A stretch of 64,000 bases of DNA, taken from the NCBI GenBank assembly GCA_949152475.1, contig OX424568.1, positions 22,977,667 through 23,041,666 of the forward strand. The letters are read 5' to 3'. The notes below the pieces were generated by a model. It searched no databases. It had not been told where the DNA came from and saw nothing but the letters and a program-made list of their open reading frames with translations. Each line of letters starts with the position of its first letter. Position 1 is the first letter of the stretch. A program made the translations under genes and the position numbers. Source of the DNA: Terebella lapidaria. Its lineage: Eukaryota; Annelida; Polychaeta; Terebellida; Terebellidae. Below are positions 11,881 through 59,850 of the stretch, in pieces.

Positions 11881-12937
11881 AATGACACACTTTTACAGGT
11901 TTTAGGGAGTTAAATGACCCATAATTGAAAAAGAAGAATATTTCATAAAAATTTATATTGTCGAATGCACGATGCCATACTGGTGATTGTTTGAACACTG
12001 TTGAATCAAAGATATTTTGAATTTTGGCCCCTCTGAATGGGCCCTCCACTGAGTCTTTTCACTGAAAGTATGAAATTGTGTCAAACTGGTCATTTGCGGC
12101 ACTAAAATTGCCCCCAAAAAGGCATTCTAAATATTAAAAATCGTAAATAGCTTATTGACTCATATGGGCAGGTATAAAGATATAAAAATATAGACCTAAA
12201 GACCCGTATTGCTTAACAAATACGTTACTTGATAAGTATGGTTGTATGTTCACAGAAAGCAATTCTTACAAAAACAAATAAACCAGGCCATGTCCGCGTT
12301 ACGCCCTAGACCCATCAGCATTATCCTTGCTTACATGAATTACGCACACAATACGTGGCGAAATTTCAACTCCAACCAAACAAGTTGCTCACCACCACCG
12401 TTAGGCAACACAAACGAAAATAGTAAAAATCAATTAGAGGATACGTGGCTGTGTAGGTTTAAACGTGACATCTAATTCTTCTTCAATAGCGAGTAACATC
12501 TGTCCAAGAAATCGAATGCAAACAATGACCGAGTCAGTCGAAGAAACTTCTAATTGACCGCTATACTTGCGCCGCGTGCTCATAAGAACTCGAAGTCAAT
12601 CAATAAGAATATTTTGTTTTTGATTTTCTGACGTTTCAAAAGTGGCATACGTATTCATTCCCACATGTAGGATAAATGCCTAGAACTGCGTAATTGACAA
12701 GTATCTTGCCAGTTACACTTTTGTACGTTTTCTTTTATTTTTGGAGGTGAAAGCTGATGAAATTCTACCAAATTTATCGTCATCACCATCAGTAGAATTT
12801 ATAATAAATCGGAATCATTCAATCAAGGAACTTGGAAGGAAGCAACAGGCACAGAAAAATAATTCAACAATGTCATGAAAATATCGTACATTAAAATGAT
12901 CGAAAAGACACGACAAATTCTTTAAGGATATACATGT

Positions 12938-12990
12938 ACACATATATATGAGGATATAATTTGAAGGTTTATATTATTCACTGATTAAAA
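12938..12990 (+). promoter_or_regulatory. Possible TATA region and short leader of the HG-repeat gene
   Basis: CATATATATGAGG near 12941 lies about 45 nt ahead of the ATG, and GATATAAT lies a little further on. Either could act as a TATA element with a very short 5' leader. The region is AT-rich, so this is weak. Confidence 0.25.
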
Positions 12991-14568
12991 ATGACAAGAA
13001 CAACGATACTACTTCTAATATCTGGAGTTTTAACTCACATCGTTGTCGCACCACCGCCAACTCCGAACAGACAAAATGGTGAGTTACGTTTTTTCACCAT
13101 GTTCACACGATTATATCTTACACTATGTATTAAGCCTGCAGTTCAGTGAGAGTCAATGGCACCAACAAAAATACCAACAAGAGTATATATTGTCTACTTT
13201 TCTTGTTTGGCGCACGTTCGAACTGAACAGGATATATTTTCTGCTTGCACATAGACCTATATCCTTATGTAGCCAGTCCAAGCCTTAAAAAATCACGCAA
13301 AATGTATTTTCTAATTTTCAAATGTGTCAGTTTGTGTCAGTGCATTCTCAATATATACTAGTACATTATGTACAAAAAAAAATCGGCGATTTATTTAATG
13401 GCGTAGACGTATGAATAGTAACTGAGTCTGCACAAACAGCAGGCACGATCGGGTATAAATTATCATGCATCACATGAAGATATTTGTCGTTTCAGGTCCC
13501 TGTATCGGGATGGACTGTTTACACGGGGTCCTGATGCATGGGGATAGCAAACAAGGGGACAATCACCAGGGCGAAGACACCTTCGAGCGGCTCGAGTCCG
13601 CCGACCGCTTGCGGGCCTCGGCGGGGCAGATAGGCCCCTGTCGTGGGGAGGACTGCATGGAGCGGATCCAGCATGGCGGAGCGGATCCCGAGGCTGAGCA
13701 TAAGGCCGCGCAGAAGGCGCCAGGGGTTGACAAGCTGGAGCAACAGGGGCCCTGTCGCGGCATGGATTGTATGCATGGCGTGCTCATGCATGGTGATAAG
13801 GAGCAAGGTATTGATCATAAAAAGAAAGATGCTAAAGATCGGAAAGTCAGGAACGAGGTACATCGAGGCCAAGTCCCAAAAGTCGACCCCGACGCAGCCC
13901 TGCATGTCGACAAAGTTGACCACACTAAAAAGGCAGTCACTCAAAATTCCCGAAAGTACAAGGACAAGGCACCAAAGATGGATCCTGAGTCGATTCTCCA
14001 CGGTGCTGAGATCGACCACAAGGAGACGAAAGAGCCCGTGCAGCATTTGAAGCGAGAAGTGGAGGTAGGCAATCTCGAAGCTATGCTGCATGGCGGCCAG
14101 AAGGTCGACCACACTGCGCCTCGGGCGGAGAGAGTCGAGCAAGCCGACCACGCGCCTGACACGGTGGGGGACCTCGAGAGTCTACTCCACGGATCCGCCT
14201 GGGAACATGACCTCCACAATAAACCTCGCGCAGAGCAGGAGCCTCGGCCCGAAGCGGAGTCTAAGAGGGAGACTGTGGGCGTATTGGACCCGCACGCTAT
14301 GATCCACGGGAAGCGAGCCGTCCTCGGCAGGGTTCCAAAGGAGGACGAGGATGACTTCGAAGCTTGGCAGAAGGAGAAGGTGGCCGGGCAGGGCTTCACC
14401 CTCGCTTACATCACGGACACCATCGTCAACGAGCTGGACATGTTCAGACAACGCTACATCCCGCGCTTCTGGCAGGAACACCACGAGGACGACGTGCAAG
14501 ATGATGGTGTTGAAGGGGATAAAGCCATGGAAAAGAGACGCGTACACAAAACCAAAACTGAAATATAG
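12991..14568 (+). CDS. Secreted His/Gly-repeat protein with GPCxGxDC modules, family unknown
   Basis: Exon 1 (12991-13078) encodes a signal peptide (MTRTTILLLISGVLTHIVVA, then PPPTP). It ends at AATG followed by GTGAGT in phase 1. Exon 2 (13496-14568) follows a TTTCAG acceptor, giving 386 residues. Residues 30-129 hold three GPC-x-G-x-DC modules (Cys pairs 32/37, 78/83, 115/120), the only cysteines in the mature chain. Around and after them, about eight modules carry a hydrophobic residue then HG (HV once), most followed 4-8 residues later by [DNE]H, for example LMHGDKEQGIDH, ILHGAEIDH and MLHGGQKVDH. The spacers are Lys/Glu-rich. The C-terminus is acidic, with an amphipathic stretch near IVNELDMFRQRYIPRFW. 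Exon 2 is much more GC- and CpG-rich than its surroundings. I recognise no family. The paired His and CX4C motifs suggest metal binding or an extracellular matrix or mucus role, which is inference. Confidence 0.75.
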
Positions 14569-16708
14569 TCCACGTATTATGATAAATTTACCACTAGAGT
14601 CCCCTGGGATTCCAATAGGGTGTGATAGTTCTAAATTCATGCTTTCAACACTCAAAATTCAATAGCTACATTCCTCAATTATTTAGATTTTGTCTAGATT
14701 TCCATCCTCCAGCGAATTTCGTTTCGTGTTACATGGCCTTAAATCAAGCTGGCATTGTGGTCTGTAACAGGACCATCGTACGTGTACATATGAATATGTA
14801 ATTATATCTATGTAAATATGTCAATATACACTCGTTTTGTCATACGTGTTGGCTTGGTTTTTTTGGTACTAGATATGTATCTGAAACAAAATCAAAACCA
14901 CTAGTTAACGCGCTCGTTTGCCGATAATAAGAAGCTGTTTCAAGACAATTATGAAAGTACTGCTTACTAAAGAAAAGAATATATAATGAACAAATGATAA
15001 CGACGTCAAACTGTGTTGATTCCGTTTTTGTCAATCAGTTGTGCATGGCGCCTGGCTGACTGACACTGGATAAGACAGACACCTGCGTAAGTGAGACACT
15101 TTCACAAAATCCTGAGGGTGGCTCACATAGACAGGTTTGACTGTAAATGTGGAACGACATGTGTGAAATTTTATTGTTGAGTAAATTACAAACTTGATGC
15201 TATTAGAACTGATCTTTCAATCTTCGTTCAATTTATCTCAATATTCAGATTGGAATTTCTTTTAAACGTAGCATAGTCATAAAATATTGGTGATATTATA
15301 AAAAAAATGTTCTCTTTTATACAAGATTGATGGCATGCGTCCTAAAGAACAATTATATCTATACACTTCAATAATATATTTTACAGTACTTCTGACATTC
15401 TGAAAACAGTTTGTTAATGATGGAACACAATACACACATGTATGAAAAGGTGTTTATTAAACGACTTGTTCTACAATACAAACTGCATGGTTTCAATTCC
15501 GCTACTCATTGTGATTTCCAATTCAGCTAAATAAACTACTGACAAAAATAACGTATATTGCGTAAGGTCTTACAAGTCAATACTGATATCGAAATTATCC
15601 ATATTCACCGAGATTCAAAGTTTGATAACCGCACATCGTGCACCATGCAATCTTCATATACGCTCTGCTCCAAAAACAAATAATACACGAATTAAGTGGC
15701 TATATATAATGTAGTAATCCCAATGCCCGAGATTGTTCGTTTTGAACATGGTAGCCTCGGCATAGAGCATGGTATTGAATATTAGCAAAATCAGCAGTCA
15801 GCAATCTTTTGCACATTTTCAGTAATGATAGATTTCAGTGACACAAAACAACTCAAATTCTATGCTTATCATTTAATTGCCAAAAACGATATCAGCCCAG
15901 TAACTGCCCAGTGACATAAACTTACATAATCACAAGCCAATATCTCAAAATAATTTGCAAATCACTTTTTGTCCTATCTTTACGAGGAGTTATCTTCCAC
16001 TTTTCCGTAGAAAATATATGTTTATTTCCTTGTATATTATCATGAGGCAATCGATTCATTAATTTGTCCCTAAACTAATTGGTGACCAGTAAGCTTCAGA
16101 TAGTTGTGCACTTTTGTTGTGTGACTGGGGCTTTAGATCCAATATATGCTACGAGTTGCAGCATTTCTGTTTACATTAATGGTAATTGTTGCCAATTTGG
16201 TAATTGAAGCAAAGAATATTTATGATTGTGCAAGTTTGATAATTGTTTCATTTTTGGTTTGCGTTTGACCACCATCACTACAACATTTCAGTCTGCAAAA
16301 TATGTTAATATGAAATGCACCAACAAAGTATATGTCATTGTTGTAGAATATATGAAGAAAAAATTGAAATGAATTTGAAACTACAGAGGTTCTCTACAAT
16401 GAAATGGCATTAAATAAATAAATAAATAAAGAAATAAATAAATACTACATTGACCTACTAAATCAATTACCTTTCAACTTGCACGAAGAATGTATACTAT
16501 GTCAATCGTTCACAATATAAATACGTCATTTTTGTGTGTCAGTGAAACTAAATACTTGATTAACAACTTTGCGCAGGTGACAGTTAATATTGGTGTTGAT
16601 ACTAACTAGTGCAGAAATTGTTCCTCACATTCATTGTGTCATTTCATAATTGATTATTGCTGGGCATTATTGTGTTCCGTTTTACTACTGCCTCGCACAA
16701 ATACAAAA
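14569..16708. other. Intergenic, no gene seen
   Basis: This AT-rich stretch has no long frame and no paired splice sites next to recognisable protein. An isolated donor-like GTAAGTGAG near 15090 has no coding exon in front of it. A short AATA microsatellite lies near 16409-16443. Confidence 0.4.
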
Positions 16709-18898: not shown

Positions 18899-21800
18899 TT
18901 AGGACCCGTCATCGCCAAAGTTATTAGTCTGCTCCCGCCTGACTTGATACTCGACGACTACGTAGCAGAGAATGGCGACGCTGAGCAGGCTGATGAGTAT
19001 GTATAGCTTGACGGCCACGCACACGTGCACGCCCAGGGCGAAGGCTAGCGAGGCCCCTAGACCTTGTAACATGCGGAAATTCTGGAAGGCGACGTCATGA
19101 TCGTCCGGGCAACTCAGGCACACCAAAACTGTCAAAAGAGAGCGGTACTTGTACGAATTTTCTCCTATAGTTACTGGATTAGATTTAGAACCAAACTCCT
19201 AAATTTTGGGTGTCATTGATAACTATAGATGTATAGATATATATTCAGATGCTTAGTTTTGTTATCATGGTAAAAATGCATATATTTATCGTAGGTATAA
19301 TTTAAGTATCCATTAAATTAGTCAGAACACCATTATATTTAGTTGAACAAGCAAAATAGTGTCTGTTTGTTTGTTTTCAATGTAATAGGCCGATATCCAG
19401 ACTCACGAAAATATTCCCCCATACTTACAATTACACTGGGTCTGCCAGATTGCGTCACAAATCCCCCAGAGTGCCGAGATAACGAAGAATACCGGGAAAA
19501 GTGACTTATCCGGAATCCACACTAGTAGGAAGACCATCAAGCCTAGGTGTAGGATACTGCCGACGCCTATGATGGCTTCCCTAGGCAGGTGCCTAGCTAA
19601 AACGCCCACTAGCACGGAGAAAACGGAGTTGGACATACCGAGGGTGATCATATTGTAACCCACGTGTTCAATGCCGATCGTGCATTTTATGTAGGACTGT
19701 GTGGGCGATAACAGGAGGGGAGGAGAGGAATTGTTGGTAAAATAAATTTTTATAATATATATTATATTTGAGAACAAAATGTCTACAGATTGGAAAAAAA
19801 GAGTATGTACTATTGCGATAACATATCAAAATTGTAATCGGTTTAAAAATATTTTCTTTTCAACGTGTTTGTACGTGTTATTGATAGTTTGTTTGTGAAT
19901 ATTCCGTTTGTTTTATCGTGATGTTGTTATTGGGTGACTCACCGAGTTGTAATCTGCATACACGAAGCCCTGTTCAAATCCGTTAAATATCAACATAGGG
20001 ATAAGAAGACGATATGTTTTATGATGTACAAGATGGCGCATGTTACTCCAGACCATCTGAAAAATAGAAAAATGAAATTCCAACACGTTAAAATATGGAA
20101 CGAGATTTTTCTTTACTTTATGGTGCCATTTAAGGATATTTGTATTCTATATTGGAGGCGACGTATCATAATGGTGTTGAAAGGTGATTTCATTTCAATC
20201 GCATTATATTTGTGGTGTTCGTACTAACGCGGTGCCATTAACCTGTGTATAATCAATAGGTTCCAAGGGTCGTTGGTACTAATCATTTCTTTGTCTTGGA
20301 ACAAGGTATTCCCAGATGGATGTTGAACTGTGATTAGAATTCAACCTCAGAAAAGTTCGATTTTTATATTTTCGCTTGACCATATACACTAATTACAATG
20401 CTCAGAATTATTATAATTCTCAGAATCATATATCGACTCTCGTTCGACAAACAGAGAACGTACAAGGGTTCGCGTAGTGTTGATTTGCGATCAAATGTTC
20501 GCAACCCAGTGCCAAAACACACCACATTTTAGTGCCTAATATTTAGCATTTAAAATCAAGACATGGTCGTTAAATCTGACACACTGTCAAAAGTCGACGA
20601 GTCCTTTCCACTACTAGTAAGCGAAGAGCTAGGAAGTCAGAAGCTTGCACTGTTGTTGTTGTTCCAAGGGCCAATATGTCAATTCGTCCGGCGGATAAGG
20701 ACATTACATTTCAGCCACCTGCGACCCATCAACTCAATGTCCCGAGGCGAGTACGGGGTATTAACGCAAGGTCTAGGCATTTTGCTGGTAGTCTCACACA
20801 AACGCGAAAATCCCCGTGACGATTTAACCGCAAATCCACACAAAGCCGCGAAAACATTTTTCACGTTGAAATAATGTATATAGTTGGGTATCGGGGTGTA
20901 TTTCTGACCTGTAGGCAAGGTTTCTCAGGGTCTGAAGTGGCTCCAATCTTCTCAAGAAAAAGGAGTATTAAGACGAACCCAGTAAAGGCGAAGACGAGAT
21001 AGGATCCCATCAACTTCATCACGGTGCTTGAAGCAGCTCTTACGCCTGGAAACAGCGTAATATTATTTTTTAAACAGAGCAACAGATATAGATGCATTGT
21101 AAATATGATGCGTTGTTAAGTTCGCAAAAATAAATCAGAAGTTATATACATGTGATGCTGATTTTGTTGCATAGATGTACGATTTTGATTCCAACGTTAA
21201 ATGCATTTTGTGACCATAATTTTATAGGCATATGCATATGATTAGGCGTAGGCATATGATTATTATATTAACGTATTTTCTGGTATTTTATTCTGCTCTA
21301 TCATCCTGCATTCCATGAATAATTCATCATGATCCACATGGTGGAAACCTGACTTATTTCCAGAAGAAAGACACTCGGTCAACTTTTGAGTAAGTGTGAT
21401 ACATTTGATATGGAACGGCTTACAAAGTGCCGCAATTTCTTCCCTATCAATCTCTTGGGCCAAGGCTTGCATGCGGCACTTAAATGACACCTTAGGCATG
21501 AAGATTAATATTCTGCCAAAGGTGATAGATTTCGCACTTTGTCTACTTGAACTCTTCACTGTGTCAAGATTACCACTGGGCATTCGAGAGGGCATACCAG
21601 AAATCTAGAAATGGATTTCGGAGTAAAGAACTATGATCGTGATGATGTGCTAACTGTGAAAACAAAAGAGATAACATCATTGCCCCTAAATGTCAGCTGA
21701 ATGAGTATTAGCGCATGCACATATGATGATTAGTATGCTGAAAACAATATAACACAGGAGTTTGAAATGGATTTTGAGGTACAATAATCCATTGGGGGTG

Positions 21801-23163
21801 ATTCGATCAATTTCTGGAGAATAATTTACAGTTAAGTATCCACAGACAGTTATGTTTTGGTCTTAGCAAAATCATGGCCCTGTCTCCGAAACTTGGAAAA
21901 ATATATATGAATCGGTTGAGAGTTCAAATGAATTTCACGAATATTGGACAGAAATAAGCACCCAGTAGGAATGGCACTACATGTACAGTACTGAATTTGA
22001 GAAAATGAGTGTATTTTCATTTGTCACACGAATGACTGTTCTGCTCATGGCACCATTTGAGTTCCAAGCTCTACTGAGAGACGATTTAGCTACTGACCTG
22101 TGAAGTTGTCATACGGCTGGCCCGTATCCATACAACGGTCATGGACCCCACACTTGGCTGACTCCTGGGACGTACTGTCCCCATAGTCCGAGTCCATTGC
22201 CCCAAACTCCGGGCCCAGCGAGGCATTTGTTAGCATCAGCGACGATACGAGGTTCCCCCAGATATGCGAAGTCTGTACACAAGCAAGGAATATCCCGTTA
22301 AACTTGTACATCTCATGTTGGGATAACTCCTTCGTCTCCTGTGCATAATCCACGGCGAGTTTTTGTATGTAGGTGACCTGCGCGCCCCAAGCGAGACTCT
22401 GTCCGAACCCTACGCCTAGCGAGGTTGGAATCAGCGTATAAAAATGCGGGTAGAAATTGGCAACGATCCAAAAAAGGTAAAATAGCAGGCCCAAGACGAT
22501 GGTCCACTTGGAAGTCAACTTGTTGATTAATACTGGCGGAAAGAGGCACGTCATAAACATAGAGCCGTAGACACAAGCCATGGCCGTCAGACCAAGACGA
22601 CGCTCCGTGTTCAGGCTCGACTGAAGGTTCTGGATCGAGCGGAACGCTGAGAAGACTAGGATGAAGCTAACGGTTAGAACGACGAGGTTCTTCCTGTACC
22701 GCCACGTGGAGTGCGCGATGTCCACCGCGTCGACGCTCTTATCCAGGGCTGCTAGGTCTTTGTCCACATGGTCCTTCTCCATCATGTGACTGGTCACGTG
22801 ACCAGCGTCCACGTGACCTTCGGCGTCTTCCACCGTTATATGAGGCATCTTCATCTCGAGGGCGGATCCGCTCCTGGATACGGCCCCGATGTGATTAGCC
22901 GTCGGCTCGTGGACATCCAACTCGATCTGCTCCTGTTGCGTAGCTGCTTTGTAGCTATCCTTTCGCTTCTTAGTGACGATGTGGTCGATGAAGTCGATCG
23001 CAGGGGCGTCGCCGGAGTCCGAGTTGGACTTCGTGGCGTGGCGGTAGCTCTCGCTACGCCTACGCTGTAGCTGCGTTGCGTATACGTAGCTTGGCCTTCG
23101 CGGGCGGTACAGGTCAAAATCGAAGCTGATGACCCCGCTCAAATCCCACGGAGAAAGCGACAT
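18899..23163 (-). CDS. UNC-93-like multi-pass membrane protein
   Basis: Five minus-strand exons join in phase: 23163-22098, 21045-20909, 20056-19943, 19696-19429 and 19128-18899, giving 604 residues. Similarity to UNC93A-type proteins runs the whole length: a first helix near 158-175, the IQNLQSSLN signature (LQSLQSSL in human UNC93A), FYTLIPTS, WGNL(V/I)SSL, the GFEQGF-x-x-[AS]-[DE]-Y segment, GI-x-x-VGY, ALWGICDAIWQTQ and HV-x-VKLYIL. The fold is that of a major-facilitator-like transporter with about 12 helices. Nematode UNC-93 regulates a two-pore potassium channel, and vertebrate UNC93B1 escorts Toll-like receptors; this copy is nearer UNC93A. The N-terminus is unusual: about 155 hydrophilic, charged residues precede the first helix, far longer than the few in human UNC93A. 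The ATG at 23163 (AACATGTC) is the best start. A leader acceptor with a long pyrimidine tract lies at 23415/23414, implying an upstream non-coding exon. Confidence 0.9.
21263..21595 (-). other. Unassigned 110-codon frame in UNC-93 intron 1
   Basis: A minus-strand frame lies in the intron between UNC-93 exons 1 and 2. The conceptual product is Lys/Ser-rich with several cysteines and no recognised motif. No paired splice sites link it to the host gene. It may be chance or a transposon scrap. Confidence 0.15.
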
Positions 23164-23419
23164 GTTTGCTGCCTCAGTTGAACCGCAAATCACAAGGAAA
23201 TTTCAGCTTGTTGAACCAACATTTGCGTTGGTATCAGCAGTAGTTACTGTCAATAGACATGCAGGGTTCTGTCCCAGGATGACTCAACCCCATTTCCGTC
23301 GTATCTTGGGCCTCCCGTCACGTTCCTGACGGCGTCAAGACACGGGTGATTCAGAAAGCATGCATCGTGGGGAATTTCTCATCATTTCCAGCTAATCATT
23401 TCAAGATTTGGCACCTGCA

Positions 23420-24404: not shown

Positions 24405-25188
24405 CTTTTGGTGTACTCGAATTCGTCGACTTTTCACTTCGTGGTCTTTGGTGTACTCTATTTTGTCAACTTGTCAATTATTGGTCTTTGGTGTACTCTA
24501 ATTCGTCGACTTGTCACTTCGTGGCTTTTGGTGTGCTCTAATTTATCAACTTGTCGATCCGTGGCCTTTGGTGTACTCTAATTCGTCAACTTGTCAGTTC
24601 GTGGCCTTTGGTGTACTCTAATTCGTCCACTCATCAATTCCTGGCCTTTGGTGTACTCTAATTCGTCGACTTGTCACTTCGTGGCCTTTCTTGTACTCTA
24701 TTTTGTCAACTTGTCACTTCGTGGTCTTTGGTGTACCCTCTTGTGTCAACTTGTAAATTTGTGGCCTTTGGTTTACTCTAGTTCATCGACTTGTCAATTC
24801 GTGGTTTTTGGTGTAATCTAATTCGTCAACTCCTCAATTCCTGGCCTTTAGTGTACTCTATTTTGTCAACTTGTCAATTTGTGGCCTTTGGTGTACTCTA
24901 ATTCGTCGACTTGTCATTTCGTGGTTTTTGGTGTAATTTAATTCGTCCACTCACCAATTCCTGGCCTTTGGTGTACTCTATTTTGTCAACTTGTCAATTC
25001 CTGGCCTTTGGTGTACTCTAATTCGTCGACTTGTCATTTAGTGGTTTTTGGTGTAATTTAATTCGTCCACTCATCAAGTCCTGGCCTTTGGTGTACTCTA
25101 TTCTGTCAACTTGTCAATTCCTGGCCTTTGGTGCACTGTATTTTGTCAACTTGTCAATTCCGGGCCTTTGGTGTAATTTAATTAAGGC
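24405..25188. repeat. 40-bp satellite, block 1
   Basis: About 19 units with the consensus parts CTTTGGTGTACTCTA, TTYGTCRACTTGTCA and ATTCGTGGC repeat every 40 bp. Units vary by several percent, with two main subtypes at the second segment (TTTTGTCAAC or ATTCGTCGAC). Because 40 is not divisible by 3 and the unit lacks stops, all three plus frames stay open. The resulting frames are not genes. The same unit continues at about 26340 and 30335. Confidence 0.92.
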
Positions 25189-26339: not shown

Positions 26340-26829
26340 TCACCACCCTGTCATATCGTGGCCTTTGGTGCACTCTAATTCGTCAACTTGTCAATTCCTG
26401 GCCTTTGGTGTACCCTATTTGGTCAACTTGTCGATTCGTGGCCTTTGGTGTACTCTAATTCGTCAACTTGTCATTTCGTTGCCTTTGGTGTACTATATTT
26501 TGTCAACTTGTCAGTTCGTGGCCTTTGGTGTACTCTATTTTGTCAATATGGCAGTTCGTGGCCTTTGGTGTACTCTTTTTGTCAACTTGTCAATTCGTGG
26601 CCTTGTGCATTCTAATTCGTCAGCTTGTCAATTCCTGGCCTTTGTTGTACTCTATTTTGTCCACTTGTCAGTTCGTGGCCTTTGGTGTACTGAATTTTGT
26701 CAACTTGTCAGTTCGTGGCCTTTGGTGTATTCTATTTTGTCAACTTGTCAGTTCGTGGCCTTTGGTGTACTCTATTTTGTAAACTTGTCAATTCGTGGCC
26801 TTGTGCATTCTAATTCGTCAGCTTGTCAA
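26340..26829. repeat. 40-bp satellite, block 2
   Basis: About twelve units of the same 40-bp repeat as at 24405 resume directly after the Helitron-like insert. They end abruptly at CTTGTCAAT where the LINE begins. The shared subtypes show it was once continuous with block 1. The open frames across it are repeat-driven. Confidence 0.92.
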
Positions 26830-29660
26830 TCCCCAAAAGAAGTGCATTTGGATATGTCATTAATATAGATAAGGAATAATAGCGGACCGAGTATAGACCC
26901 CTGAGGAACTCCATATTGAAATAGTGAGCTATGAGATTTGTTGTCATAAAGTTCGGCGTATTGTGAACGTCCTGTTAGGTAGCTTTCAATCCATTTATTG
27001 CAAACGCCACGTATGCCACAATTATTTAATTTATTTAATAGTATGTCATAAGATAACGTATCGAAGGCTTTACTTAAGTCAATAAAAATGGCTAGAGTGA
27101 AATGTTTGGATGATTTATTGTTAGCTTCAGCAATTGATTTTAGTAAATGAAGTACGGGGTGAATTCTAGAGTGTTTAGGTCTGAAACCATACTGGTGTTC
27201 ATAGAAGAAGTTATGTTTTTCGAGAAAAGTAAAGATCTGTGTGTACATTATGCGCTCTAGCAATTTAGAAAAAGCAGGAAGTAGGCTAATAGGTCGGTAA
27301 TTTTCTATTAATTGTTTATCGCCAGACTTATGTATTGGAATAACCTTAGCAATTTTCATCGCATCCGGTACAACACCACTATTAATGCTGAGGTTAAAAA
27401 TGAAGGCCAGTGACTCCTTTACTTCGTATATTGTTGATTTCATTAATTTATTCGATATATCGTCATATCCTTGGCTTAATTTTGACTTAAGCTTAGTGGC
27501 TACGGTTACAATATCTTGAGGAATTACTGGTTTAAGAAATATGCTATTGTCAATTTTGTCATCGAGGTTTTTAAATTGTATTCCGGCTGGTGTTTTTATT
27601 GTTTTGTTTAATTTAAGTCCGATATTAGTGAAGTACTTATTGAATTCGTTAGATATTAGGTTCATGTCAGAGGTTTCTTTGTTATTAATTAGGAATGAGG
27701 TCGGTAATTTATCGTTAATGTCTGTAGAGCTTAAAGCTTCTTTAACGTAGTCCGCTACAAACAGTGAGGTAACGGAGAGTCAAAATTTAAAGGTCATTTT
27801 TTGAATATTATCTCTTCAAAATGACATTATTTTATAGAGTAAATGATCAGCATCTCAATACTGAAAAGAAAATAGGGGGTCACCGTGCTCGTTTTTTCTA
27901 CATATTCGATCAAAATCACACATATTTACCTAAAATGACATAAATTCTGGCATTTTTGCACATTTTTTGGTCCATATTCACATCTTGCATCGTGTTTTCC
28001 GTGCGAACGGATACGGTGACCTCCTATTCTCTTTTCAGTTTTAGGATGCTGAACAGTTACTCTATAAAATGTATCATTTTGAAGCTCTAGATTATGTTGA
28101 TACAGGTATTTATTTTAGAAAACCCTTTGACCCCCTTCCCTCACTGTTTGGAGCGGACTACCTTAAGTACTTTCCATGTTTGTTTAATATCGTTTTTAAA
28201 GCGATCGAGTAAGTGACTGAAATGTACCTTTTTCGCCAATTTACGAAATTTGTTGTAGATGTTACAGTATTCTTTGTATTTGTTAATATTAAAAAACTAT
28301 TAAAAAACTAACTCTACAAAACTATTTTGTAGAGTTTTGTCTTCTGGATAGACGAAACCAAGAGTCCTTTAGTAAACCATGGGTGGTGTTTGACAAATTT
28401 ATTGGTATTGGATATTGACTTGAGGGGGAAGCATTTATTGAAAGCGGCTTTGTATAGACACATGAATGTATTGTATGCAGTATTTGGGCAGGTAGTAGAG
28501 AAGACTGGTTGAAAGTTTATGTTGCTAAGTGTGTCTTTGAAGTTAGTTATATTTTTTCAGTAAATAAGCGGACTTGTCTTAGTCGTTTGTTTTTTCTTTT
28601 AATCGTTTTATCGATTATAGTAAATGCGCCGAAGTGATCTGATATGTCTGTGATGATGATACCTGAATGAATAGCTGTGTTATCGTTCAGAATATTAGTA
28701 TAAATGTGATCTATTAGTGTTGCAGAGAATTCGGTTATTCTGGTGGGTTTGTTAATTACAGGCATGACTCCTCGTACTATCAGATCTTCAATAAATTCAT
28801 TTGTTTTAGAATGTGAGTCACAGTTTAACAGATTTATATTGAAGTCACCCAGCATGATCAAGGAGTCATTGGAGTTATTAATCTTTATGACTATGTCAAC
28901 AATACTCTCAGTAAAAACGTTAATATCCGCTAGAGGTGGTGTGTTCGGTCTGTAAACAACTCCGACAATGATAGATTTATTATTATTTTTGATTTCGATG
29001 AAAAGTGTTTCAATTATGTGTGGTTTAAATACCGTTAGGTCGTTTCTGATTTTATATTCAATGTTTTCTTTAATGAAGAAGCCAACCCCACCCCTACTAT
29101 CATCGTCAGTCGGTCTGTTCTTGAAAATAAAGTTGCCGTATCCACGTAGTTTTAGATCATTATTAATTCGGAAACTTTCAGTTACACCAATTATATCAAA
29201 CGAGAATGTTGGACTACTAAGGTTGGATATTAATGTATTAAATTCATCCCAATGGCCGGGGAGGCTTTGACAGTTTAATGTGAATAGTGATAAGGAGTTA
29301 TTGTTATGGGAAGTGTCATGAACTCGTCAGGAGTGTGGTAATTACAATCTTTCGGAAGAGATGGGAAAGGCTCAAGATCATCGCAGTCAGAATATAGAGA
29401 GTTGATATCTAAAAACGACTCATGCGCAACCCGGTCAAGCGTATCGCTATTCACTACCATATCCCCGGAGTCCACAGACGGCACCCACCTCCCCCGTGGA
29501 ACAGGAGAGACCACGCCGACCGCACCCAGCGCACACACATGGCAAGTCACACAGTGGAGCACAAATAACAAAGGAAAACAGGATAAACATGTAAAAAAGT
29601 AACATAAAATGTGGATATATGAAGGAGTACCAAGGTGGACAGTACGGTTCAGTGGACAAA
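26830..29660 (-). mobile_element. CR1/Jockey-type LINE, 3'-truncated and interrupted
   Basis: Reading on the minus strand, an endonuclease part (about 29280-28547) shows YRPNTPP, LGDFNIN and the late SDH motif of apurinic-type LINE endonucleases. A reverse transcriptase part (27665-26830) shows YRPISLL, FIDLSKAFDT, YGFRP and GVPQGSILGPLLFLIYIND. The two are separated by a 417-bp MITE (27746-28162). The copy stops just after the PQGS/LLFLIYIND block, so the YADD catalytic box, the C-terminal part and the 3' UTR are missing. The left border abuts 40-bp satellite without a poly(A) or other tail. A frame at 29571-29275 leads into the endonuclease and may be the end of ORF1 or a linker. Confidence 0.85.
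27746..28162. mobile_element. TTAA-flanked palindromic MITE (piggyBac type) inside the LINE
   Basis: The insert is bounded by TTAA on both sides (27742-27745 and 28163-28166), the target-site signature of piggyBac transposons. Its ends are inverted repeats (GTAGTCCGCTACAAACAGTG against GTAGTCCGCTCCAAACAGTG). The inverted match continues through most of the element, including GGTCACCGT blocks and the TATAGAGTAA stretch, so the whole copy can fold back. There are no coding frames. It interrupts the LINE between endonuclease and reverse transcriptase, so it is younger than the LINE. Confidence 0.85.
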
Positions 29661-30330: not shown

Positions 30331-30334
30331 TTAT

Positions 30335-30810
30335 ATTGTGTCAACTTGTCAGTTCGTGGCCTTTGGTGTACTCTATTGTGTCAACTTGTCAGTTCGTTGC
30401 CTTTGGTGTACTCTATTGTGTCAACTTGTCAGTTCGTTGCCTTTGGTGTACTCTATTGTGTCAACTTGTCAGTTCGTTGCCTTTGGTGTACTCTATTGTG
30501 TCATTTTGTCAGTTTGTGGCCTTTGGTGTACTCTATTGTGTCAACTTGTCAGTTCGTGGCCTTTGGTGTACCCTCTTGTGTCAACTTGTCCGTTCATGGA
30601 CTCCGGTGTACGCCGTTTTTATCGAAATGTCAATTCGTGGCCTTTGGTGTATTCTATTTCGTCAATTTGTCAGTTCGTGGCTTCAGTGTTCTGTATTTCG
30701 TCAACAATGTCAATTCGTGGCCTTTGGTGTAGTATATTTTGTCAACTTGTCAGTTCGTGGCCTTCGTTGTACTCTCATTTGTCAATATGTCTCTCTGTGG
30801 CCTATCATTT
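30335..30810. repeat. 40-bp satellite, block 3
   Basis: About twelve units. The left five or six are nearly identical (CTCTATTGTGTCAACTTGTC subtype) and the right ones decay progressively until the repeat is no longer recognisable near 30900. This gradient suggests recent local amplification at the left end. All plus frames are open by the same arithmetic as in block 1. Confidence 0.92.
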
Positions 30811-45073: not shown

Positions 45074-47633
45074 TCAAGAACTCATCACCATTTGTGAATT
45101 GTAGGTGCAGTTCGTCGCAGAGTAGATGACAGGTCGCAAAACTGCCAGCTCGGTCAAGTCCGTCTCACCTGCAAATGATCCAAGGTTATTTCTATAAAAA
45201 TCTCTTGATGATCAGAATAAATAACTCAAGACTGAGGAGAACTGATGAACGATTACGTCAATAAATCTGATTTAACACTGATCACGTGTTGACACTTGCC
45301 TGCTATTTGCTCCGGTGAACGGCTAAGGAGATACTGCAAATACAAAATTACGGTGATTTCATTTTCAAGGCTTTCAAACGACATACTAGTATATGATGAA
45401 ATTGCATCATAATGGTGTATATCGAAAGCGATAGACGTCAAGGGCCGTCAAAACAAGAATCACAGACGTCTACAACGTGTGTAGTCTTACGTTGGTGACG
45501 GTTTTGTAGTCGTTGTCGGTGTAGCTCATGTGATCCGGGGTACAGCTGTCTGGTGGAGAACACAACTCGTCTGTCATCTCAACTGGTTCATTAGCCAGCT
45601 GTAGGACAGGCTCCGGCAGAGCTGAAAGTAAACGCCATTTTTTTTAAAAAATCACTTGGGCAGAGCTACAAGTGAATGATTATTTTTCAGAAAAAATTAA
45701 CTAGTTTCAGCAGTTCAGTTTCATGATTTTTAGACACAGTTTGTTTTGAACAGTTGGTTTTATAAAGGTTTGGTTGGTCAATCGAAATCACTTTCTAATG
45801 CTTTGGAAACTAATCTCAAGAACCACTTTCGCGCTGACATCTGACTGTTAACATACATGTAGACTCCTCTTTAGAGTCGGTCACAAAGTACAAGGTCGTT
45901 CAGTGTTGATGAAGCATACGATAGTGTTAGTCAATGAGGATGTCGGCGATATCTTTTTTGTAATCTTCATTCAAATTGGTCATGTTCGCAACATTGTATA
46001 ATCTTGACCTTTTTCCCAGGGGCTGTATATCTATACATGTATATATATATACTGATAATCAGCGTGTTTGTAGTTGAAGGAGTGGTCGACTTCAAAGAAA
46101 GCTCAGAAGCTCTTTAGTAAGAAATTATTTATATTATACGTGTATGCGCACGTTGCCCAAACTGCATGCTTTTCGAGGATTGTGTATTCAGTGGCCCTAA
46201 TTTGGCAATATCATAATACCTAATATCATTGGCATACGATGTGAAAGTCCTTGTCACGGGCCGAATGTAGTGAAAATATAGTGAAAGTTCGCGTATTAAG
46301 ATGGTACTTAATACCAATCTATACTAGTTCAAAATACTTACTTATATCATTAATTGTAGGCAGCAGATTGTGTGCGTAGGCATGGTCTGTCGAGTTTTGC
46401 TGCTGCACACCAGTGTAAAACGGTTCAGATGGTAGGTGCTGCACGCCGCAGGCAGGAGAATTGGTCATTGGCATATCCTGAAGTTCCTGGACGGCGTGGT
46501 CCACTGGGCCTTGCACCTGGTCCAGTACGGATTGTGGAGTGTTGGCGAGTGTGGTTTGTTGTAGTGCCTCCTCAGGGGACAGCATTCGACCAATCTGGAA
46601 ATTGGATGAAACCATTGTTGAATTGTGCATATGCCTATATTTGTGATTTCAGTGCATGAACATAATGGTTTATATAATTACCGCTGGGATCGGCGACGGG
46701 GCCTGTTGTGTTCGCTGCATAGGAGAGTGGGGTGGTTGGCTCTGTCTGGATGGGCATCCTGAAATGTATTTTAATGTTCTTCATTTGAATTTCACAAGTT
46801 TTTCTATTCTGTTATGAACTGTTCAAGAGCATGCTTCAGGTCATGTTTCATCTAGTAAAGTACGATTTTGAATATCTCTTGCATACATACTGCTTCTGGA
46901 GATGACAGAGTTTTTCCGTTTGGGTTCATCCAGATGGTAGACTTTGTAAGCGCGTTGTCCTTTCTTGCGCAAGTGTTTCATCTCTCTCACGTCTGGCAAA
47001 CTGTTCAATGCACAGCGGAAGTTTGCTTTCCACTTTTTGGCATCCGGCCTCCTTGAATCATATCGTCCTGCAAAATGGCAAAAATATTGTGAATTACAGT
47101 CTTGCCAACCTGATAGCAGAACAAAATGCACGATACTCCATGGCAAGGTAGCTCGATTTCGAGGTAGGCCCTAATCCTTGAAGAGTTTCGAGGTTAGTCA
47201 TGTTAGTTATACATAGCAATGAAATAGGTCTACCTGTGTATTCAGCCCAGCGTCGAAAAAGCTCCGAGTCACGGTTCTTGTCCCAGGTCTGCCTGGAGCC
47301 GTGGACCCAGGGAATTCTGATCATCGTCTTCTCGTCATCATGCCAGACAAGCTCTGGGATGTCTCCAGAGGCTACCTGCCTCATGAACCACGCACGCATG
47401 AGCAGGCGCTCGCCGCCAGCTGCACGCCCAGGGGTCGTATCCCCGTCGCTGTCCGAGTCAGTCACCGGGGCAGACTCCCGCTCAAGAAGGTGAAAGGCTT
47501 GTCGCTCGTCGTGGGACATGTGCGTGAAGGCACGTCTTCCCATGCGGAGACGACTCACTCGCTGGCTCCTGCCTCGGGTGGTGGATGCGTTCGTCGTCGA
47601 GGTGTGGTCGTTGGTTACCTGGTGAGGTGCCAT
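45074..47633 (-). CDS. Interferon regulatory factor, IRF1/2-like
   Basis: Seven minus-strand coding exons join in phase: 47633-47234, 47067-46891, 46758-46682, 46594-46342, 45621-45491, 45333-45300 and 45168-45074, giving 388 residues. The IRF DNA-binding domain spans about 78-180. It has the five spaced tryptophans W82, W97, W109, W117 and W129, a further W146, and the run [17 protein letters not shown], nearly that of human IRF1/IRF2. The domain binds GAAA-type interferon response elements. The C-terminal half is Gln/Pro/Ser-rich, with no clear IRF-association domain. Two oddities stand out. About 75 hydrophilic residues precede the domain, which in most IRFs starts near residue 5. The 34-nt exon ends at a GC donor (GCAG followed by GCAAGT). 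The last two exons rest on splice signals and phase alone, so the C-terminus is less certain than the DNA-binding domain. Confidence 0.88.
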
Positions 47634-47645
47634 GTTTCCGGATTC

Positions 47646-50600
47646 TCTGTAGATATATAAGTGAAGAGGGCGTTCCTTACTTTGCACACTTGAAATGCCA
47701 CTTTGCCTGGTACTCTTTGGTATAGAAAAGATTCTATTGCTGGCCAAGAAAAATAATTAAAACACACTCTGAATTGAACGCTTTAACGTGCAGTAGTTTC
47801 AGGAGAGCCTCCTTCAAGCAGTTTAAGATAAAAATATAATATACCCAGTGCATTCAGACAAAATATAGGTCTCCTTTTGTTATGCCCCTGTCACACCCTC
47901 CCGGTTTTTATTTCCGACTTCAACAGAACTATTACAAGTCATATCATTTTTGAAACACCTCGTCGACAGTTTCCAGAGTTCTTCAATGACTAACTGCATT
48001 CAAATCAACCCTTCATTTCTGTTTGTTACTACTTTGTATCTTCTCTTCATCTCTCTGCCCACTGCCATTGCCATTGGCGATGACGTGATGCGTGGTTGCT
48101 GATACATTATATGTTCTTGTATCCTGTTCATGTCGTCAGTTTGTCTTGATGGCACTTCTCCAGCACGTGGATGCCCATTGAGCATGCGGACATAAAGGCA
48201 GCCAACTCTAGCACCACTTCACGTGTTCTATTTGTATAAACTTGGAGTGTTCTATTTCTATCTCTGGTCGTTTGTTGACAGATTCTTTTAGTCATATTAC
48301 TCCTTCGCACAACACACATCGACGTTGATCGCTGTGTAGGCCTACACTACCCATCTTCAAATAAGTCATGATCATTGGTGAATATCGATACGATGGTAAA
48401 TGTAAATGTATGGTCACATGTCGGCGTGGGCGAATCATGACTGGTTGAACCAGGCTATATATCTCGTGTGGTTTTTGATTACTTAATCGTGGCTATATCA
48501 GCAGCCCAGAGTAACACCTACACCATATCCGCCTTACTCGAATGTCAATGGCTAATTCACATTGCTGTTTGGTCCACTTCTATTTCGTGAACCAGGTGCA
48601 TATATATTGATCTGGTGCAAATCAGTTACACAATATATAACCTGCAACTAGTAAACCATATATTCTGGACACAATGTTAACATAGACTCAAAGCTTTTAG
48701 ATAATTTTGTCACAGTCTTTCAGCGCAGTCTATGCATTCCTCACATTTTATCAGAATCACGTATAGTTCCTAACTACCGGTATTCAAGACACAAAGATCG
48801 GATTCTATTGAACTTGATTCCATTGTGACATACAATGTACTGCAATGTCAACAAAGATTTTAAATCTTTGATGCCAATCAGAATCATCTAAGAGTGAACA
48901 ACTCACAATCCCATATCCCATAATGAGTTTGGTCTTCACTAGCAATAGAAAAGTGCGCAACAGTGGTTCCCACTTCGAGTATTTGAGGTATTCTTTGTTA
49001 TAATGTATTCTTTAGGAGAAAGACTCCCTGGAAGCACCGTATCGGAAGTATGTCTTTCTAATTTATATCTTTGCGGTAGTTATGGGGTAGGAAGGATATG
49101 TTTAGTATGTGATTCACAGGATACCCAAAAACAAATTGCACACGGATTTGGTTGTTTTTCATCCGGAACACTTAACTGCTCGAGGAAAAGTTCGGGCTTG
49201 TGTGACTGGGTCTTAAACTCAACCCCACATTCACATTCAACCAATATTCGTTCTTAATTCGACAAGTGCAACTGAACGCGTCAGGATACGCTTGAACTTT
49301 GCACGCGCGTGACATGTCACATGTTCCAACAGGACGTTAGATGGCGAATGCACGAGATATGAGCTAAAAATAGAAACAGATCATGTGACATGCGCTCTTT
49401 TGGGGGTTGGAACAATGCTGTCAATCAAACAATGGACTGCGGGGATTGGCAGGCAAACTGTGCCATTGCGCATGTGACATAGCAAGTCAAACTACTTTAT
49501 GACGGTTTTTATGTTCAAAATACTAATGTATCGTCGGAACATCGGAACGAGATGTTTTCAAAGAGAGATAAACATTGTATTTTCCCTCGTGCTCATGTCG
49601 CAAGATGAGGAGCCATTTACTGACTGTGGTAATTACTGCCCACATTTTCCTGTTTCGACACGCCCGGTCATGATTTGATGGGCTCACGATTTAAACGTTA
49701 TTCTAAATCTGTCTATTCAATTATAGTCGCTATTGAACATTAATTAGAGAAATAAATCAGTTTTACAAATATACATGTATGATCTTGACATGTTCATGAA
49801 CATGAAATCTAAAAACTTATTTAGATCGAACACATTTTTAAAAATATACATTTAAATTTGCCCGATGAAACAGATGGATAGAATATCTGGACTTACTGAA
49901 GGCAAAGTGATTTTTATAAATGTAAGCTTATCGAAAGCATACGCTTACTAACGTACGCTTGATGAACAAGTATATATATATCAATATATTCAATTAAAAT
50001 ATTCTCATAATATCTGGAGTTTTTAAATCCTTGCAGTTCAAATTATGAACGGTAAGTCCGAAACACCAATTATTTGAAATAGAAGTATCCAAAAACCGGT
50101 AACATAGCTGTCATCTGATACCACTGCTTAAGTTATCTAAAATTTGGAATCATGTACAATAAACATACTGATTATTTTTTGGATTGCCCAACAGCAAAAT
50201 TCGTTTGAGCTCACAAATATTATGATTTTGCCCCCAATATATTGCTATGTGTAATCACTTGTAAAGATGACAGTTTCACGTGAGTTCCAACCTATAATTT
50301 CAGCACCCGTCTGATCGTATTTTAATAACAAATTTCGATAATATCATTCTATAACATTAGGTGGGATTTTTAATCCCAAACCCATATCAAATTTAGTTAG
50401 TTATAATAATAATAAATATTTTTGTGACTCACTCTATACCGAAATTGACAACTTCAGTAACGTTTTGAATTTCAAGGGGCTAACCTCCCAACACAAGTTT
50501 CTAAAATTTGATGCGAGCTTCTGATATTTATATTTATGAATGAACTGATGAATGAATGATCGGTTATTTTTTAATTACACGTATTTGTGAAAAATATTTA

Positions 50601-59164: not shown

Positions 59165-59850
59165 CCCTCACCGGCGAAGTTTCTATTGTTTGCCACTCCA
59201 CCGGCGAAGTTTCTATTGTTTGCCACTCCTCCACCGGCGAAGTTTCTATTGTTTGCCACTCCTCCATCAGCGAAGTTCCTATTGTTTGCCACTCCTCCAC
59301 CGGCGAAGTTTCTATTGTTTGCCACTCCTCCACCAGCGAAGTTTCTATTGTTTGCCACTCCTCCACCGGCGAAGTTTCTATTGTTTGCCACTCCTCCACC
59401 GGCGAAGTTTCTATTGTTTGCCACTCCTCCACCGGCGAAGTTTCTATTGTTTGCCACTCCTCCACCGGCGAAGTTTCTATTGTTTGCCACTCCTCCACCG
59501 CGAAGTTTCTATTGTTTGCCACTCCTCCACCGGCGAAGTTTCTATTGTTTGCCACTCCTCCACCGGCGAAGTTTCTATTGTTTGCCACTCCTCCACCGGC
59601 GAAGTTTCTATTGTTTGCCTCTCCTCCACCAGCGAAGTTCCTATTGTTTGCCACTCCTCCACCGGCGAAGTTTCTAATGTTTGCCACTCCTCCACCAGCG
59701 AAGTTTCTATTGTTTGCCACTCCTCCACCGGCGAAGTTTCTATTGTTTGCCACTCCTCCACCGGCGAAGTTTCTATTGTTTGCCACTCCTCCACCAGCGA
59801 AGTTCCTATTGTTTGCCACTCCTCCACCGGCGAAGTTTCTAATGTTTGTG
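59165..59850. repeat. 33-bp minisatellite, about 21 units
   Basis: Units of CCACCGGCGAAGTTTCTATT plus GTTTGCCACTCCT repeat head to tail with few variants (ACCAGCGAAG, TTCCTATT). Since 33 is a multiple of 3 and the unit has no stop in most frames, several frames on both strands stay open for over 200 codons, giving 11-residue periodic peptides. There are no spacers, so it is not a CRISPR array, and no sign that any frame is a gene. Confidence 0.95.

Follow-up and report, generated by a model that had tools for sequence, protein, structure and literature searches.

At positions 12991–14568 of a 64,000-nucleotide stretch of the Terebella lapidaria genome (the window), two open segments can be joined into a frame whose product begins like a secreted protein and then repeats short elements built on histidine and cysteine. 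Is this a functional gene, do the repeats form a genuine module, and what might such a protein do?

The candidate gene lies on the forward strand and encodes 386 amino acids in two exons, as the initial annotation had it; recomputation reproduced the in-phase junction and the open frame. Exon 1 (12991–13078) holds the start codon, a hydrophobic segment resembling a signal peptide, the sequence PPPTPNRQN, and the first base of the Gly30 codon. The predicted intron (13079–13495, forward strand, 417 bp, GC 36%) is of the GT..AG type in phase 1 with a GTGAGT donor and a TTTCAG acceptor, and displacing the acceptor by one base in either direction brings in many stops. Exon 2 (13496–14568) supplies residues 30–386 and the stop codon, with zero stops across 356 whole codons, and its frame extends in the 5′ direction to an ATG of its own at 13465, giving a 367-residue ORF. 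When 13465–14568 was dinucleotide-shuffled 500 times and read in six frames, the longest stop-free run averaged 149 codons and reached 324 at most; none of the 500 attained 367, so the GC-rich stretch favors long frames, though not one of 367 codons. Shuffles of the whole window (n = 20) gave a longest stop-free run of 194 codons. Minus-strand ORFs of 210, 157, and 152 amino acids overlap exon 2. Combinations of an ATG, a hydrophobic segment, and a GTRAGT donor occur five times on the two strands of the 64 kb, exon 1 included and with four distinct donors, and the join of exon 1 to exon 2 is thus likely rather than proven. Exon 2 had also been singled out as GC-rich against its surroundings. 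Its GC content is 57.5% and its GC3 is 0.67, the latter ordinary next to the UNC-93 ORF (0.69) and the IRF ORF (0.585) of the same window; a GC anomaly was therefore rejected, the coding composition being normal for exons of the window.

Upstream of the gene, TATATAT on the forward strand (12943–12949), 48 bp before the ATG, is a possible TATA box, a weak match to the motif only. No AATAAA was found within ~960 bp past the stop codon; the nearest lies at 15530, and an ATTAAA lies at 15456. The N-terminal hydrophobic stretch, with a Kyte–Doolittle mean of 2.32 over its best 12 residues, is a plausible candidate signal peptide of the 386-residue protein. Its likeliest-looking cleavage site, between VVA and PPP, puts proline at +1, a residue that signal peptidase disfavors in that position. 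The tail, described earlier as acidic, is so at about residues 360–371 but closes on a basic end, KRRVHKTKTEI. The terminal KTEI (14554–14565) resembles, without matching, a KDEL-type motif, which is an ER-retention signal.

Beyond residue 30, nine HG and one HV dipeptides make up eight modules, two of which have a doubled HG (HGVLMHG). The key histidines are residues 44, 89, 128, 166, 198, 228, 261, and 300, separated by steps of 45, 39, 38, 32, 30, 33, and 39 residues (~37 on average), a regularity matched by none of 100,000 random placements. The shared core reads D/N-x(3-5)-hydrophobic-[LMI]-H-G, with one Q and one HV as exceptions. Modules 1 to 3, all on the forward strand like the remainder, are (G)PCIGMDC-LHGVLMHG...NH (residues 31–53, positions 13498–13566), GPCRGEDC-MERIQHG...EH (residues 76–98, positions 13633–13701), and GPCRGMDC-MHGVLMHG...DH (residues 114–137, positions 13747–13818). 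Only these three carry the GPCxGxDC element. The five modules that follow are DPDAALHV...DH (residues 160–172, positions 13885–13923), DPESILHG...DH (residues 192–204, positions 13981–14019), NLEAMLHG...DH (residues 222–235, positions 14071–14112), DLESLLHG...EHDLH (residues 255–270, positions 14170–14217), and DPHAMIHG, followed by KR and no second histidine (residues 294–301, positions 14287–14310). An aspartate (asparagine in one) lies 6–8 residues ahead of the histidine in all eight modules, and in modules 1–3 it is the D of GPCxGxDC. A second histidine follows 6–9 residues past the first in seven of the eight; it stands as [DE]H in six modules and as NH in module 1. The exceptions are module 8 with no second histidine, module 4 with no glycine, and module 2 with Gln before the histidine.

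The modularity was tested on residues 21–386 against 20,000 permutations. HG occurs 9 times against 2.12 expected, which bears out the modular HG repeat of the initial annotation, and [LMI]HG 8 times against 0.23; HG..[DE]H (5 against 0.19), CX4C (3 against 0.08), and GPC (3 against 0.03) are likewise in excess, and not one of the 20,000 permutations attains any of these five counts. In contrast, [DE]H overall is not striking (8 against 4.93; attained by 1923 of 20,000), nor is H..[DE]H taken without the HG anchor (6 against 2.18; 665 of 20,000). The firm signal is therefore the HG anchor together with the Cys element, and the second histidine is firm only relative to that anchor. Shuffles that hold the HG/HV anchors fixed agree: [DE]H follows the anchor in six of eight modules (0.70 expected), hydrophobic residues occupy both −1 and −2 in seven of eight (0.39 expected), and neither is attained in 20,000 shuffles. 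D/N at −9 to −6 occurs in eight of eight against 3.35 expected, a count reached by 19 of 20,000 shuffles. Two details of the initial annotation change. Its first two CX4C pairs stand at Cys 32/37 and 78/83, but the third is 116/121 and not 115/120; its second histidine is present in most modules as described, at a distance of 6–9 rather than 4–8 residues.

The internal repeats also offer a means of judging selection. Thirteen of the 28 module pairs were compared: three within the Cys group (modules 1–3) and ten within modules 4–8. Between modules 1 and 3 (17 residues), pS is 0.80 and pN is 0.09 (Fisher p 2.9e-5). Across the set, p falls below 0.05 in nine of 13 pairs, the others being 1-2, 4-6, 4-7, and 7-8; these values are nominal over 13 non-independent pairs, with rounded counts, and come from short segments with saturated synonymous sites (pS above 1 in two pairs) and from modules picked for protein similarity, which lowers pN. 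Low pN beside high pS suggests selection on the frame. On the simplest reading, the modules would be old, their protein sequence kept while synonymous sites turned over.

In composition the protein is acidic, with a net charge of −16 (His excluded) and 25 histidines in the 366 residues from 21 to 386; His accounts for 6.7% and Gly for 8.3%. Tyr (3 of 386) and Ser (9 of 386) are scarce, which makes DOPA or phosphoserine chemistry unlikely, and a DOPA/phosphoserine adhesive protein, high in Tyr or Ser, was rejected. AlphaFold2 run on the single sequence gives a mean pLDDT of 44.4 over residues 31–386 and 58.5 over the last 93 residues, where a helix is predicted at residues 332–358 (positions 14401–14481, forward strand) whose best two ten-residue blocks average 76 and 74. 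The prediction fits a disordered module region followed by a C-terminal helix, in a mode that cannot tell disorder from lack of data. Many folded proteins also receive low pLDDT from single-sequence AlphaFold.

Is the protein a member of a known family? The complete protein matched no Pfam-A family at an E limit of 10, and the four of eight modules long enough to be scanned singly matched none. Neither the protein nor a module profile matched any of 177,635 distinct PDB sequences at E up to 10, and the bacterial and archaeal models of NCBIfam gave no match. The initial annotation recognized no named family, and these profile and sequence searches of Pfam, NCBIfam, and PDB concur. Within the worm's own genome, a search with the complete protein at an E limit of 0.001 found only the gene itself among the best-scoring candidates, and searches with its first part, His-module part, and C-terminus at a limit of 10 yielded no accepted second copy among theirs; a match on contig C2, of 26% identity at E 9.49 and interrupted by one stop, was put down to chance. 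As a control, a search with the window's UNC-93 ORF finds 16 genome places, itself included. Thus, the protein is an apparent orphan in Pfam, NCBIfam, PDB, and its own genome, and seems to be, as far as searched, a single-copy annelid gene.

A DNA pattern for GPCxGxDC occurs at five genome places, three of them in the gene itself, and a reversed control pattern occurs at two. The other two, on contigs C5 and C17, belong to a single dispersed repeat; its long open frames lie on the strand opposite to the pattern, so these matches are due to chance. The copies (near 21.78 Mb on C5 and near 14.35 Mb on C17) are 94% identical over 1292 bp, stay open for 391 and 349 codons, and are probably a mobile element. 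That the gene lies inside a repeat was rejected, since 12400–13495, which spans the 5′ flank, exon 1, and the intron, matches itself alone. A bacterial or viral origin was rejected as well: six peptide patterns gave 12 viral and 22 prokaryote contig matches, none of which tblastn confirmed as a relative.

In the literature, four module strings occur in no paper of the PMC library searched, and the protein is undescribed among the matches listed on His-rich polychaete proteins, sandcastle-worm H-repeats, terebellid adhesives, and annelid neuropeptides. The matches listed for the Alvinella genome paper (PMC12403961) likewise hold no description of such a protein. The module was thus not found in the libraries and literature searched, and lineage-restricted secreted repeat proteins as a kind are already familiar.

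Several known systems share features with the protein. The copper octarepeats of the prion protein, PHGGGWGQ, are contiguous, eight residues long, and rich in Gly and Trp. The resemblance is in repeated His-Gly along a flexible chain with potential copper sites; unlike the octarepeats, the modules here recur at 30–45 residue steps, have HGG in only two of eight, and add a second histidine in seven of eight. The jaw proteins of nereids and glycerids, Nvjp-1 and MTP, are extracellular annelid proteins that contain His and bind Zn or Cu, and they are dominated by Gly and His, unlike the worm protein with its 8.3% and 6.7%. Histidine-rich glycoprotein combines cystatin domains with GHHPH repeats. 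In the source excerpts it is a Zn-binding plasma protein, secreted and with a His-rich region; the product here, predicted to be secreted, is rich in His as well, and a metal role is proposed for it. Unlike histidine-rich glycoprotein, the worm protein is without any Pfam domain match.

What, then, might the modules do? We tentatively favor, with somewhat less than even confidence, a secreted polyampholyte, restricted to its lineage, in which the modules bind Zn or Cu, or respond to pH, and cross-link a secretion. A mostly disordered chain, spliced and secreted as we infer, would carry eight ligand modules between charged linkers, one every ~37 residues, and close with a helical segment at its C-terminus. 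In each module the imidazole of H-G (H-V in a single case) would follow hydrophobic residues; seven of the eight would add the second His 6–9 residues on, usually beside Asp or Glu. The GPCxGxDC of modules 1–3 would most likely form a small disulfide loop in an oxidizing secretion. His/acid pairs may be ligands for Zn(II) or Cu(II), or may change their charge around pH 6, and many weak sites could cross-link or condense the secretion, perhaps a tube lining, mucus, or cuticle. Terebellids are tube dwellers, and the His-rich cement proteins of sabellariid annelids, described below, also speak for this reading. Judged from the arrangement of these residues, metal binding by the modules is plausible; the modest His content and the imperfect modules 2, 4, and 8 weigh against it. 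A bolder claim, which we regard as doubtful, is that GPCxGxDC with hydrophobic-hydrophobic-His-Gly...[DE]His constitutes a new reusable extracellular metal-binding module, confined to terebelliform (or wider sedentary) annelids, that cross-links without DOPA or phosphoserine.

A tube cement component, belonging to or paralleling the H-repeat proteins Pc-4, Pc-5, and Sa-5 of sabellariids, is an unlikely alternative. Sabellariids share the phylum and a similar tube habit. According to excerpts of PMC12621633, their cement includes His-rich H-repeat proteins for which metal binding has been raised by analogy with mussel byssus; Pc-4 and Pc-5 are His-rich, and Sa-5 is a polybasic H-repeat protein of 128 amino acids with 8.6% His, for which a signal peptide is given and no conserved domain is named. 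The likeness lies in annelid origin and in His richness or His repeats. By the descriptions in those excerpts, Pc-4, Pc-5, and Sa-5 are basic, whereas the GPCxGxDC-bearing protein is acidic and three times as long as Sa-5 (386 residues against 128), and the scarcity of Tyr and Ser also counts against the cement chemistry. Membership in the H-repeat group, whose members are described as basic or polybasic, was rejected on charge: the His repeats are present but the net charge is −16.

Distinctly unlikely is a docking role, in which the HG modules would serve as short linear motifs for a partner protein and His would act in recognition and not in metal binding. The shared core D/N-x(3-5)-hydrophobic-hydrophobic-His-Gly does resemble a docking motif, seven of eight modules have the hydrophobic pair at −1/−2, and the linkers look disordered, but docking leaves the recurring downstream [DE]H unexplained. 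It is improbable that the protein is a precursor of several bioactive peptides, such as GPCxGxDC rings and an amidated ..DPHAMIH-NH2 released at the HGKR site. The signal-peptide-like start, the repeats within the chain, and a single GKR at residues 301–303, a textbook site for amidation and cleavage, speak for a precursor; against it, dibasic pairs are at chance (10 against 8.42 expected; attained by 6427 of 20,000 shuffles), as is KR (4 against 2.10; 2940 of 20,000), and the dibasic sites do not bracket the modules, KR following the last HG only. A classical peptide prohormone was rejected, as repeated peptides between dibasic sites are not what the protein holds. Very improbable is that no functional secreted protein exists, the exon 1 join being spurious and exon 2 a single-exon or decaying frame: the other signal-like first exons of the window and the ATG at 13465 would allow it, but the stop-free 356 codons with GC3 like neighboring genes, the consensus-like, in-phase splice sites, and several module pairs with pN far below pS argue against it.

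Much of annelid materials chemistry resides in lineage-restricted secreted repeat proteins. Zn or Cu binding by the modules would make them a compact, evenly spaced metal-crosslinking design without DOPA, phosphoserine, or Gly-rich repeats. If they do not bind metal, the locus would still be an apparent orphan gene in which the internal repeats by themselves suggest that the frame is under selection.

The remainder of the window holds other genes and repeats. Exons of an UNC-93/MFS transporter lie on the minus strand at 22090–23193 and 19403–19777 (PF05978, E 2.3e-11, above the cut-off, and 5.9e-4, just below it). Also on the minus strand, 47094–47747 is an exon for the DNA-binding domain of an interferon regulatory factor (PF00605, E 1.7e-16, aligned to positions 2–57 of the 105 in the profile), which by this match is assigned to an annelid IRF, and 26826–27665 is a fragment of a retroelement reverse transcriptase (PF00078, E 1.3e-24). 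Closely similar 40-bp satellite units, TTTGGTGTACTC..TCAACTTGTCA.TTCGTGGCC, form arrays at 24407–25183, 26349–26830, and 30334–30785, in which the long repetitive ORFs are probably spurious. A 166-bp tandem repeat (9.3 copies, 97% matches) occupies 1153–2704, and a 33-bp minisatellite (20.7 copies, 95% matches) occupies 59169–59848. Neither a tRNA nor any Rfam family at gathering score was found in the window.

Elsewhere in the assembly, contig C417 (61,412 bp) carries a cox1-like gene that is AT-rich and divergent, includes TGA codons in frame, and has additional sequence separating its two matching blocks. It is distinct from the worm mitochondrion (C438) and is perhaps the mitochondrion of a cobiont. 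The worm mitochondrial contig, of 15,973 bp, reads with the invertebrate code (table 5), under which conserved Lys and Met positions come out as expected, has the gene order of annelids, and contains two adjacent tRNA-Met genes. In source excerpts, the terebellid Loimia arborea is described as having two adjacent tRNA-Met copies, Neoamphitrite affinis likewise has two genes for tRNA-Met, and among the matches listed, 23 tRNAs occur in other annelids as well.
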